Shown: in pieces, positions 43,383-47,917 of the stretch
Position numbering within the stretch: the stretch's first letter is position 1
Layout: each line of letters begins with the position of its first letter
NCBI GenBank assembly: GCA_024195585.1
Contig: SWBL01000045.1
Coordinates: forward strand, 62,001 to 126,000
Direction: 5' to 3'
Length of the DNA: 64,000 nt
DNA from: Aureobasidium sp. EXF-3400
Taxonomy: Eukaryota; Ascomycota; Dothideomycetes; Dothideales; Saccotheciaceae
Notes under the pieces: model-generated
Told to the model about the DNA's origin: nothing
Seen by the model: only the letters and a program-made list of their open reading frames with translations
Databases searched by the model: none
Translations under genes and position numbers: made by a program

Positions 43383-44316
43383 ATGGTGAAAGACTCTATC
43401 CTTACCTATCTCCCGCCTGGTTGGACAGAGGAGAGATACGAGAATGCCACTGACGATGACTGGGAAACCCTACCTGAACACGTAAGTTAAACATATGCTA
43501 TCTCATCTCTGACAATCATTGTGTTGACCAACCAGACAGGAAGCTGAACTGCTGTTCAAAAGAGAGAACGAAGAGAGAAAAGCAGCGTCGAGGGAAGCTC
43601 GTCAAGCCTTCAAGGATGGCATGATAGCAAAAGCTCAAGCTGCAGGTGCGCCTCCTCCAGAATTTCCTCCTGAGACAGACGACTCTGAGCCGGACTTCTT
43701 GGTCAAGCTTGTGGAGGAGAACCAATGGGATGACTTTGGGTTTCTCGTCTTTCGCACGTACTTTGGCAACGACACGCTCTGGGACCAATTCCGTGAATCA
43801 TGGGATTCACTCCTAGAACACGGGTTCGACACGGCTGATGAATCTGAGGGGTTCGATCGCATCCGTGACAAGCTTTTCATGAAAACTGTTGACGACGACA
43901 TAACCAACGGGACGAGTGCGGAAGGTGTCGCTTTTGCATATCGACTGTTCGCCGAGGACGATGACGAACTGGAGGAAGATGAAAGGCTCGAACCTGGACT
44001 GCGAACAAGAATGTGTCTCTTTGTCGACGAAGAATGCATGAGGTCTGTAGTGGAGCCAGGCTTAGATATACCGCCCTTCGTCAAGGCTGTCGATGTTGAG
44101 CTCGGCGCTGCTACACAGCAGAGACCTGGAGCCATGTTCCGAGTCGCTATTAAGGACCTGGTCACTCGCTTCTACCCTGCTCTGCACCTGTCCGAAATAA
44201 ACGACGTTGCTGACCTCCGTCCCCAGAAAGACGATGAGATCTGGACAAGATTGTCTTCAAGCTTCTATGGACATGCACAGCAAAAAGAACTCCAGCACGT
44301 CTTAGATGGAACATAG
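43383..44316 (+). CDS. Hypothetical acidic cytosolic protein
   Basis: Two exons: 43383-43481 and 43540-44316, with a 58-bp intron, 291 residues. The protein is strongly acidic with no signal peptide or membrane segment. It begins MVKDSILTYLPPGWTEERYE, has a charged coil-prone segment (LLFKRENEERKAASREAR, about 37-56), a Pro-rich linker (PPPEFPPETDDSEPDF) and then a domain with FGFLVFRTYFGNDTLWDQF and MCLFVDEECMRSV. I do not recognise the family; related-looking uncharacterised proteins are frequent in Dothideomycetes and Eurotiomycetes. The splice joins His33 to Glu34 in phase 0. Confidence 0.65.
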
Positions 44317-44695
44317 ATATCAGATGAACATAGTGGGCCGATAGACTGATAAGAGTCTCTCAAACTCGTGAATGTATGATCATGGAGCGTAGCACTACAT
44401 TCAAGCTTTTAGCTTCTGGGTGACTTCCCAGGCAATAACTCAAGCTTCAAGAAGAGAATGCGAGCTTCGAATGGTTGTAACTTGGAAATGTGTTTGGTGA
44501 TGTAGTGTCACATGTCAGTTGGGAGAACTTGAAGGTGAAGGACTGCGCCACAGTGACGTTGTGGAGCTTCCAGTTTCTCGCCGCCTTGAGGGGTACGAAC
44601 TCATCCACCAAAACGCTATCCACACCACGTCCTCCTCAATCATCTCTCAACACCACCTTCAACTCATAAACCAATCCTCACATACCTAATTCATC
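44317..44695. other. Promoter and leader of the RRM-metallothionein gene
   Basis: 379 bp. The last ~100 bp are CT-rich and ATG-free up to position 44696, as in highly expressed fungal genes. No other feature seen. Confidence 0.4.
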
Positions 44696-45743
44696 ATGTC
44701 GACCACCGTCAACGTCCAGAACATCTCCAGCCAGACCTCTGAGAAGGAGGTTCGCGACTTCTTCTCGTTCTGGTGAGTCGTGTCCTCTCAGCTCAATAGC
44801 CCAACATCGACTAACGCATCCTTCACAGCGGCAAGATCTCAAACATCTCTGTCACACCCGAGTCCAACTCCGCCGACGCCGTCAAGTCTGCTTCGGTCAC
44901 CTTCGAGAAGGAGTCGGCTGCAAAGACCGCTCTTCTCCTCGACAACACCCAGCTGGGAGCCAACCAGGTTCACGTCACCACTGTCGCATCTCTCGATGAA
45001 CTTTCTGGTGGAAAGCTTTCCGCTGCCGACGAGGAGCACTCCGGCGAAGACCTCTCTCAGGATGACAAGCCCCGCTCTCGCATCGTTGCCGAGTACCTTG
45101 CCCACGGCTACACCATCAGCGACAAGGCCATTGAACGCGCTCTTGCTCTTGATCAGCAGCACGGTGTCAGCGCTCGCTTCACCTCTACCCTCCAGCAGTT
45201 CGATGCCAAGTACCAAGCTACCGCAAAGGCTCAGGGCATTGACCAGAAGTACGGCGTTTCTGACAAGGGTGTCGCTGCCTGGTCTGGCTTGAACTCATAC
45301 TTCGAGAAGGCCCTCGGCACTCCCACCGGCCAGAAGCTCAGAAACTTCTACAGTCAGGGCAGCAAGCAAGTCCTCGATGTCCACAACGAGGCCCGTCACC
45401 TTGCCAACCTCAAGACTGGCAAGAACGATGTCCACTCTGTCGGAAACGGAAAGACCAAGTGTACGTTCTAGAATATCTGAAAGCAATCTTTACAATTTAC
45501 TGATGTGACATAGGCTCCTGCTCTAGCGACGCTGGTGCCTGCCCTTGCGCTCCTGGACACTGTGCCTGCTCCGGCTGTGCCAAGAACTCCGACAAGTCTT
45601 CTGGTGCCACCGCTGAGTCTGCTGACATGAAGGTCGTCTCGGAGGAGCCCAGAAAGACCAAGTGCAACTGCGGTGGTGCTGAGGGTAACTGCCCCTGCCC
45701 TGCCGGACAGTGCACTTGCAACGGTTGCGCTAAGGCTTCTTAA
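44696..45743 (+). CDS. Vip1-like RRM protein fused to a twin seven-cysteine metallothionein-like tail
   Basis: Three exons: 44696-44772, 44829-45460 and 45514-45743, 312 residues. Residues 1-80 form an RRM with VNVQNISSQTSEKEVRDFF (RNP2 side) and SASVTFEKESAAKTAL (RNP1 side), closest to the fungal Vip1 group. A helical, charged middle part (about 105-230) follows. The third exon encodes two modules with identical spacing, C-x-C-x6-C-x-C-x4-C-x-C-x2-C, separated by ~27 residues. Fourteen cysteines in this exon and almost none before it indicate metal binding; Neurospora copper metallothionein has the same order of seven cysteines with slightly shorter gaps. The role may be metal-responsive RNA binding. 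If intron 2 is retained, translation stops at 45469-45471 and the tail is lost. Confidence 0.85.
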
Positions 45744-46351
45744 ATGCTGAAGTTATGATGGACTCTGATGAAGAACAAAATTTTGCTTGGATGAGGCACA
45801 GGTGTTTACTTGCTTGCTCTTTTGGTGATTGATACCAGCGTGTCTATTCGCGCACCGTCAACGATTTTATGTAATGAATGAAAACAGTCTTCAACTATTC
45901 CCCAATCATGGCTGCCCTTCGTGGTCAAGCAAAGTGATGCTCGGGCTATCTGAATGTACAATTGTCTTCAGATCAGAATCGCGGTCAGCAGATCGCAATT
46001 GGCTCCTCAGAAGTACTGTTTCTCTGTTATCTCGTAGTATAATCGTGACAAAGGCAGTCAAAGACTGTCGTATTAATGGATTAAATCAAACAAAGAAAAA
46101 TTGGTTCGACGCCTCGAACGCGCCCAACGGCAAAAAATTTCTAGTTCGGGCCAAAAAGTGGCAACGCTTTGGAAAAGACATGTCAAGAACCTGGAGAAGA
46201 AGAGTCATTTCCACGTACATTAAAATGTTCTAGGTCGCTTACAAAGATACCCGGCTCTTACAGCTTTCCGCAAACTGTTTGATTGATTGATTGATTGATT
46301 TCCTTCAAGTCGCCTTGTGAGAGTGCTTTTTGCTCGATCTTCAATTCTGGA
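45744..46351. other. Spacer with a TTGA microsatellite
   Basis: 608 bp between the RRM gene and the permease gene, including a (TTGA)5 stretch at 46279-46300 just upstream of the permease start. No supported gene. Confidence 0.45.
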
Positions 46352-47917
46352 ATGGCTCTCACAATGAACGACCGCACCGTCAAGGAACCGGATACCAGGA
46401 TTACTGACGAGGAGAAAGGGCTTCCTGGACCTGTGAAAGACGCGGATGTAGAGGTTGCTCAATCATGGTCACTGAAGAAGTTTGCATCACTGGGAGTGGA
46501 GACTGGAGGTATTGTTCCCATTCCAGTGTCTGAGAGAACGAACACGAGAGTCCATGGAATATTTACGCTTTGGTTGACTATGAGTGTCAATTTGCTACCG
46601 TGAGTCCTCTCTTTCAGGTATGGGAACACGAACATGTTACTGACAGAATCAAGAATTGTTACTGGTATGACTGGACCGCTGGGCTACGGACTTGGACTCA
46701 GAGATTGCTCCTTGATCATTCTGTTTTTCAGTGTTCTGTGTACGATACCGGTTGGGTATCTGGCAACACTGGGCCCTAGGACCGGTATGAGGCAGATGAT
46801 TCAGGCAAGGTTCTCGTTTGGCTACTACCTCGTATCGGTGCCTGTCATTCTCAATCTTGCGACTCTTACTGGCTTCTGCGTCATTGACAGTGTTATTGGT
46901 GGTCAATCTCTGTCTGCAATTACCCATGGCCATCTGACGCCTGATGTGGGTATTGTGGTCATCGCCATTCTTGCCATGTTGGTCTGCTTCTGCGGGTTCA
47001 AGATTTTGCATCGTTATGAACGATTCGCTTGGATCCCAGCCCTGATCGCGATTGTTATTGCTACTGGAACGGGTGGCAAGCATCTGAGCAACCAGGTTGT
47101 CCAGCCAGTCCCTGAGGCATCTACTGTCTTGTCGTTCTCAGCACTTATTGCTGGGTTCCTCATTCCTTGGGCGGCGCTGGCTGGAGATTTTGCTGTCTAC
47201 ATGGTTCCCGAGGCTTCCAGCACCAAAGTTTTTGCTTACACTTATGGTGGACTGTTCCTACCGACAGTACCTCTGATGGTCCTCGGTGCTGCTATTGGAG
47301 GTGCATGCCCTAATGTGCCTTCCTGGCAAGCTGGTTACGATTCAACCTCTGTCGGTGGTGTCCTGGCAGCTATGCTCGAACCCGCAGGTGGCTTTGGCAA
47401 ATTCGTTGTCGTCCTGCTCGCCTTCTCACTTCTCGGAAATATTGCAGCAACCATGTACAGCATCACACTCAACTTCCAACTCTTGCTGCCTTGGATGGTC
47501 AGGGTTCCTCGCTTCTTGTTCGCGATTGTCATTACAGCCATTGTGATCCCTGTGGCCATTCGTGCCGCCACCAGTTTCTTCGACAACCTGGAAAACTTCA
47601 TCGGCGTCATTGGGTACTGGGCCTCTGCATTCGTGGCCGTGGTCGTTATCGAGCACGCTTGGTTCAGGAAATCAGATTGCTCAGCTTATTCTCATGAGAA
47701 GTGGGACAAGGCTAGTATGCTACCTAGCGGCATTGCTGCACTGGGAGCTAGTGTTTTGTCTTTTGCTTTGGTGGTTCCTTCGATGGCGCAGGTGTGGTAC
47801 ACAGGGCCGATTGCGAAGACGACTGGTGATATTGGGTTTGAGATGGCTTTTGTGGTCACAGGGCTGCTGTATGTGCCGCTCCGATACTTGGAGATCAGGA
47901 TACAGAAGCGAGTATAG
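46352..47917 (+). CDS. NCS1 family cytosine/purine permease, Fcy type
   Basis: Two exons: 46352-46599 and 46654-47917, with a 54-bp intron, 503 residues. The join gives the family stretch SVNLLPIVTGMTGPLGYGLG; the intron carries a TTACTGAC branch site. Other signatures are the RFSFGYYLVSVPVILNL helix, the GGQSLSAI segment, and FLIPWAALAGDFAVYM. The family comprises proton symporters for cytosine, adenine, guanine or hypoxanthine, and some members carry vitamin B6. The start is taken at 46352; an in-frame ATG at 46295 lies within the TTGA repeat region and is less likely. It is a different NCS1 branch from the permease at 11926. Confidence 0.88.

Follow-up and report, generated by a model that had tools for sequence, protein, structure and literature searches.

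A fungal Vip1-family protein with an RRM fold and an apparently undescribed tail of seven-cysteine, metallothionein-like modules

Background

The cysteine modules considered here most resemble the copper metallothionein of Neurospora crassa (PDB 1t2y), a free-standing polypeptide of 25 residues that is rich in Gly and Ser, has a Lys near its end and contains seven Cys ordered CxC, CxC, CxC, C with gaps of x5, x3 and x2. The rest of the protein resembles the Vip1 family, represented by S. pombe vip1 and by fungal entries named 'protein vip1' or 'actin cytoskeleton protein VIP1', in which an RRM fold is combined with a helical region. CDD places plant 'Vip1-like' RRMs together with fission yeast Vip1. 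The plant BPA1/BPL proteins (binding partners of ACD11) presumably have a helical region similar to that of the protein described here; to our knowledge they carry no cysteine tail. In the excerpts of PMC9603095, BPA1 is an ACD11 interactor that contains an RNA-binding motif. A literature search largely outside subscription journals returned no paper on an RRM protein with such modules.

The gene analyzed here lies in a 64,000-nucleotide stretch of DNA (the window) from Aureobasidium sp. EXF-3400 (GCA_024195585.1, contig SWBL01000045.1, positions 62,001 to 126,000). It apparently represents the known Vip1 family with an undescribed, widespread metallothionein-like extension. Vip1-family names are borne by many of its relatives and say nothing of the cysteine tail.

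Gene structure and comparison with metallothionein

The gene has three exons, spans window positions 44696-45743 on the forward strand and encodes 312 aa (Table 1). Its product belongs to the Vip1 family; a hypothetical protein of Aureobasidium sp. EXF-12298 has exactly the same sequence. The original prediction placed two identically spaced seven-cysteine modules in the last exon of a Vip1-like gene, and both the CDS and a pattern match bear this out: CSCSSDAGACPCAPGHCACSGC (aa 237-258) and CNCGGAEGNCPCPAGQCTCNGC (aa 287-308) each follow C-x-C-x6-C-x-C-x4-C-x-C-x2-C. Each packs 7 Cys into 22 residues without F, Y or W, in dense CxC arrays as in metallothionein. Besides these 14 cysteines, the protein has Cys26 in the RRM. 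The junction 45460/45514 agrees with the one originally predicted and splits the codon for the first cysteine of module 1. Reading through intron 2 leads to an early stop, with the ORF 44815-45471 ending in KTKCTF; if retained, this intron would yield a tail-less form of the window gene.

Table 1. Coordinates of the gene and its features in the window
Feature	Position	Strand	Remarks
CTTGAGGGGTA, AGGGG core	44585..44595	+	111 bases before ATG; longest upstream run common to both copies
Exon 1, start of RRM	44696..44772	+	
RRM fold, aa 1-80	44696..44991	+	split by intron 1
Intron 1, GT..AG	44773..44828	+	second copy: intron at same place
Exon 2, remaining RRM, linker, helical region, base 1 of first module Cys codon	44829..45460	+	
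Conserved helical region, aa 107-222	45070..45417	+	invariant positions in alignment; low-confidence model helices
Seven-cysteine module 1, aa 237-258	45460..45578	+	first codon split by intron 2
Intron 2, GT..AG	45461..45513	+	
Exon 3, cysteine-rich tail and stop	45514..45743	+	
Seven-cysteine module 2, aa 287-308	45663..45728	+	

The module was expected to have the cysteine order of the Neurospora protein with longer gaps, and 1t2y agrees: the order, the Gly/Ser-rich composition and the Lys near the end are shared, but the gaps in the tail are x6, x4 and x2, and the metallothionein, unlike the module, has no Pro and has Asp rather than Thr before its first Cys. Neither the tail sequence nor the tail profile matched 1t2y. 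Twenty two-module tails, hand-picked from the 49 of 105 left after an 80% identity filter, were compared with structure and family libraries; their profile matched no PDB chain at E up to 10, and with Pfam and NCBIfam no metallothionein model was hit by any of the 20 at E<=1. Some weak matches of the tail, to 2cs3 (E 0.18), 9ncf (E 1.2), PF17492 and PF23499, were taken as noise. The Neurospora metallothionein, as a 25-residue query run without a positive control, matched nothing in the Aureobasidium genome. By sequence the tail falls outside the metallothioneins, but it may work like one.

The RRM fold and the helical region

AlphaFold strongly predicted an N-terminal RRM fold, and a structure search with the whole model returned mainly RRMs; on these models the fold of the window protein is secure. 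Alignments of chosen rows, 83 for the RRM and 79 for the helical region and each including the window protein, were used to look for conserved residues. Cys26 is present in 83/83 members. The RNP register was set by aligning sequences with poly(A)-binding protein rather than by superposing coordinates. In this register aa 6, 46 and 48 (RNP2-2, RNP1-3 and RNP1-5) are never F, Y or W in the 83 members, and His occupies RNP2-2 (aa 6) in 76. The original description of the protein as RNA-binding therefore finds no support in the canonical RNP stacking aromatics, which are absent throughout the alignment.

The helical region has 26 positions that are invariant in the 79 aligned rows, and many of the source matches are named 'protein vip1'. 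Pfam holds no family for it. AlphaFold predicted helices there with low confidence in both models, and the region alone gave a pLDDT of 64.

One polypeptide joins the Vip1 part and the tail

In four relatives (P0069, P0074, P0039 and P0104, on contigs of 2,894 to 18,743 bases), a single ORF that sets out within the exon-2 equivalent continues across the helical region and includes both modules. Here tail and helical region are joined without splicing, so the fusion is real; the prediction that RRM fold and modules share one polypeptide is borne out, and a separate transcript for exon 3 is rejected on the evidence of these other species, whose ORFs have no intron at that point. In addition, P0002 (311 aa) reads as one ORF across both Aureobasidium junctions, as expected of a spliced transcript, and its 1,077-base contig leads us to infer that it is one. 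In P0005, the ORF reads on into intron 2, at a position matching that in the window gene.

The tail profile also gave 54 short matches, of which 24 were inspected. Most of these look like pieces of Vip1 genes, with a helical end or an internal-Met start; P0202 and P0211 may, from their sequences, be free-standing module proteins.

Conservation of module spacing

A search of 5.8 billion proteins gave 2068 matches, of which the best 120, including the protein itself, were taken. A second search, started from relative P0101 and restricted in its scoring to residues 1-215 to leave the tail out of account, contributed 78 new proteins among the best 120 of 2103. Gaps of 6, 4 and 2 were found in 229/230 loosely matched modules of the first 120 proteins and in 295/298 of the 198 listed family members. 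Spacing kept to this degree throughout the relatives rules out a chance run of cysteines. Whether relatives keep the cysteines had been proposed as a check, and 117 of the best 120 proteins (own protein included) carry one to six modules.

Among the strict modules, which number 229 in the first 120 proteins, three further residues are nearly as constant: a Thr immediately ahead of Cys1 (226), a Gly as residue 15 of the module (227) and Lys24, two residues after the last Cys (227). Linkers between modules range from 10 to 32 residues in the same set. Likeness was scored for the 96 two-module proteins at the 15 positions other than Cys. It was 0.50 between the two modules of one protein; between proteins the values were 0.43 for module 1 against 1, 0.47 for 2 against 2 and 0.41 for 1 against 2. 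There is some sign in these values of both old positional identity and copying of modules within a protein. The nearly identical repeats of P0015 and P0028 look like recent amplification, as would be expected of a capacity trait. AlphaFold gave the tail blocks pLDDT values of 65-84, not plainly disordered, and predicted a beta hairpin ahead of each module.

Distribution and module number

Among the best 120 of the 2068 matches, the loose pattern found two modules in 91 proteins, one in 17, three in 7, four in 1, six in 1 and none in 3; read from their ends, P0020 and P0053 of these last three are pieces ended at intron 2, and P0108 has a shifted frame. The strict pattern applied to all 198 listed proteins gave two modules in 96, one in 72, three in 7, four in 1, six in 1 and none in 21. 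Seven of the 198 have no cysteine tail at all (P0123, P0147, P0161, P0162, P0170, P0185 and P0192), though P0161, P0162 and P0170 are flagged 'partial' by the source and P0192, from Penicillium psychrofluorescens, could have missed an exon. P0147 and P0162 have a C-terminal end that resembles that of P0101 without the module, and so have apparently lost nothing but the module. Other proteins blank under the strict pattern include eight that stop mid-module, as if an intron had been read through, P0176 and P0182 with altered gaps, and P0175, which is scrambled. In the P0101 relatives P0130, P0132, P0136-P0138, P0143, P0144 and P0149 the match ends inside the module, as if this were cut by an intron placed differently from intron 2 in our gene.

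Tail carriers among the matches listed belong to the Dothideomycetes (for example Cercospora beticola), Chaetothyriales (Exophiala dermatitidis) and Lecanoromycetes (Icmadophila ericetorum). The tail-less P0185 is from Pleopsidium flavum, also of the Lecanoromycetes; the tail is thus absent in one member of a tail-bearing class. Within the Chaetothyriales, proteins without a tail, with one module and with two modules all occur.

With module numbers of 0, 1, 2, 3, 4 or 6 among the listed relatives grouped in four classes (0, 1, 2, and 3 or more), 19 changes were needed on a tree of the protein core without the tail. This tree held 58 of 62 chosen proteins, since no cut point was found for P0026, P0044, P0052 and the six-module P0015; P0075 was counted as one module, and 17 of the 55 inner branches are open. 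Shuffled module numbers needed 25.9 changes, and none of 200 shuffles went as low as 19, so module number is clustered on the tree and does not drift freely. Even when starred branches only are counted, 11 changes are forced for proteins with two modules, and errors in gene models may add false changes.

A second gene copy and the flanking DNA

A search that scored the best candidates only found one other copy of the tail in the same genome, on contig C36. Both copies sit in Vip1 genes rather than in small free-standing polypeptides. The two genes are 83% identical over 1220 DNA columns, with dS 0.60, dN 0.054 and a ratio of 0.09; by part, and from small counts, the ratios are 0.09 for the RRM, 0.05 for the helical region, 0.12 for the tail, 0.06 for module 1 and 0.16 for module 2. 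By these ratios the tail is constrained much like the rest of the protein. The second copy keeps 15/15 cysteines, but 14 of the 15 Cys codons are also identical in DNA, so the pair alone says little about each cysteine.

The assembly comprises 53.4 Mb in 717 contigs, and many of its RRM matches seem paired by eye. The last 52 residues of the second copy are identical to P0215, an entry named Aureobasidium melanogenum. Taken together, the two Vip1 copies, the seemingly paired matches and the A. melanogenum-like end suggest a hybrid or duplicated genome.

The 3' flank (45744-45895) is 78% identical to the second copy in a global alignment with gaps counted, and 84% over part only. By comparison, intron 1 reaches 74%, intron 2 58% and the stretch of 75 bases that ends at the ATG 75%. 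As 78% is little above the value for intron 1, the flank was dropped as a candidate for a strongly kept element. Rfam gave no matches on the window; on 45700-46360 a single snoRNA match scored 17.2 bits against a cut-off of 50. The non-coding block 46080-46215 is 86% identical to the second copy and occurs at just those two places in the genome. It lies between the Vip1 gene and an ORF at 46604-47917 that matches the Pfam permease for cytosine/purines (PF02133, E 7.5e-30), and is perhaps the permease promoter. Directly upstream of the Vip1 gene, a 262-aa ORF (43528-44316) has no Pfam match at E<=0.01.

Upstream motifs and reported expression of relatives

The longest run shared upstream of the two copies, the last 50 bases excluded, is CTTGAGGGGTA, at -111 in the window gene and -100 in the second copy; in 100 single-base shuffles, none reached 11 shared bases within an offset of +-30. 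We take its AGGGG to be the core of the stress response element, and GCTG/CAGC to be the copper core. The latter is missing from the 380 bases upstream of the window gene, which argues against a classic copper-detoxification gene, and it occurs 7 times upstream of the second copy. These motifs are a hint and would settle neither copper nor stress control.

Relatives and proteins of the same name appear in several expression studies. In the excerpts of PMC8960879, S. pombe vip1 is down in delta-atf1 and is tabled alongside ctt1, gpx1 and hsp16. The Pseudocercospora fijiensis gene MYCFIDRAFT_158260, our two-module relative P0064, ties for the top RPKM in germinating conidia, a value based on only 22,940 clean reads, in the part of PMC10607838 available. 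That part explains fungal Vip1 through plant VIP1 references 102 and 103, the first of which is by its title on a bZIP protein; it apparently mixes up the fungal and plant names. For Paracoccidioides, extracts of PMC10672198 and PMC7711940 report a rise of 'actin cytoskeleton protein VIP1' under proline and a greater abundance in melanized cells; earlier finds in cell wall and vesicles are cited there as well. The Coprinopsis paper PMC3606632 also names a VIP1.

Possible function of the tail

We give slightly better than even weight to a Vip1 scaffold with a metal-thiolate buffering tail, for Cu(I) or Zn(II), that is tunable by copy number. Each module would enclose a small cluster in which thiolates hold Cu(I) or Zn(II), and the tail would buffer metal as a tethered store, its capacity depending on how many modules it has (relatives have one to six). 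Abundance, cellular place and general stress response control would come from the Vip1 part. Buffering fits best because cysteines and gaps are conserved with few other fixed residues, copy number evolves and the core persists without the tail. The stress link draws on the AGGGG-bearing 11-mer of both copies, on S. pombe vip1 in the delta-atf1 table and on the P. fijiensis relative in conidia, as far as the excerpts of those papers go. For the window gene we infer metal binding, the choice of metal, buffering, location and stress control. Spacing unlike that of the solved metallothionein, together with the lack of metallothionein or PDB matches for the tails compared, counts against buffering.

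Metal loading of the tail might instead alter RNA binding or partner choice by the RRM and in this way make transcripts responsive to Cu or Zn. The real fusion and the strongly predicted RRM fold speak for such a regulator, and the His at RNP2-2 in 76/83 members could still stack. We nevertheless consider it unlikely: RNP2 position 2 and RNP1 positions 3 and 5 are without F, Y or W in 83/83 members, seven listed relatives keep the rest of the protein without the tail, which indicates that the core works without it, and the 3' flank, a possible self-target, offers no clear support (78% vs 74% for intron 1). Metal-sensing RNA regulation is possible, and less likely than metal buffering; the metal-sensing role originally proposed is not supported, given the tail-less relatives and the window gene's upstream region without GCTG, though the second copy has several.

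In another improbable reading, the modules are structural zinc folds, each with two Zn on seven shared thiolates, made for protein or nucleic-acid contacts and not for storage. Seven thiolates would suffice for two Zn if one bridge is shared. The spacing is near-absolute, more constant than a loose metallothionein seems to need, and could reflect a structural fold; T-1, G15 and K24 are conserved, and a beta hairpin is predicted before each module with fair pLDDT. A copy number of 0 to 6 fits such folds poorly, apart from Cys, Gly, Thr and Lys hardly any residues are fixed, so that conserved contacts are few, and no known zinc-domain profile matched the tails compared.

A broader version of metal-gated control seems decidedly doubtful. 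Vip1 would here be a post-transcriptional regulator in which module number sets a metal threshold and loading switches the RRM or helical part between partners or RNAs; lineages would tune the threshold by gaining or losing modules down to tail-less forms, which might also arise through retention of intron 2 in the window gene.

A thiol redox buffer or switch, in which oxidative stress turns the cysteines into disulfides that control Vip1, we judge very unlikely. C-x-C pairs in fixed arrays are a mark of metal-thiolate proteins, and seven cysteines per unit are more than a switch needs. In favour of such a switch are the AGGGG-bearing element upstream and the stress regulation of the S. pombe family member in the excerpts of PMC8960879. 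Finally, an artefact in which exon 3 belongs to a separate gene or is mis-joined is scarcely credible, despite the free-standing look of the short relatives P0202 and P0211, as in P0069, P0074, P0039 and P0104 one ORF reaches from within the exon-2 equivalent across both modules, P0002 spans the two junctions and the same fused protein recurs in many named entries.

Implications

The annotations 'RRM', 'vip1' and 'actin cytoskeleton' cover a common fungal protein with a cysteine module that has no family in the libraries searched. If the tail holds metal, these fungi would have a large tethered store of evolvable copy number besides any small metallothioneins, and a protein that has turned up in work on conidia and proteomes would gain a testable function. 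The relatives with 0, 1, 2, 3, 4 or 6 modules provide a natural dose series for relating metal tolerance to module number.
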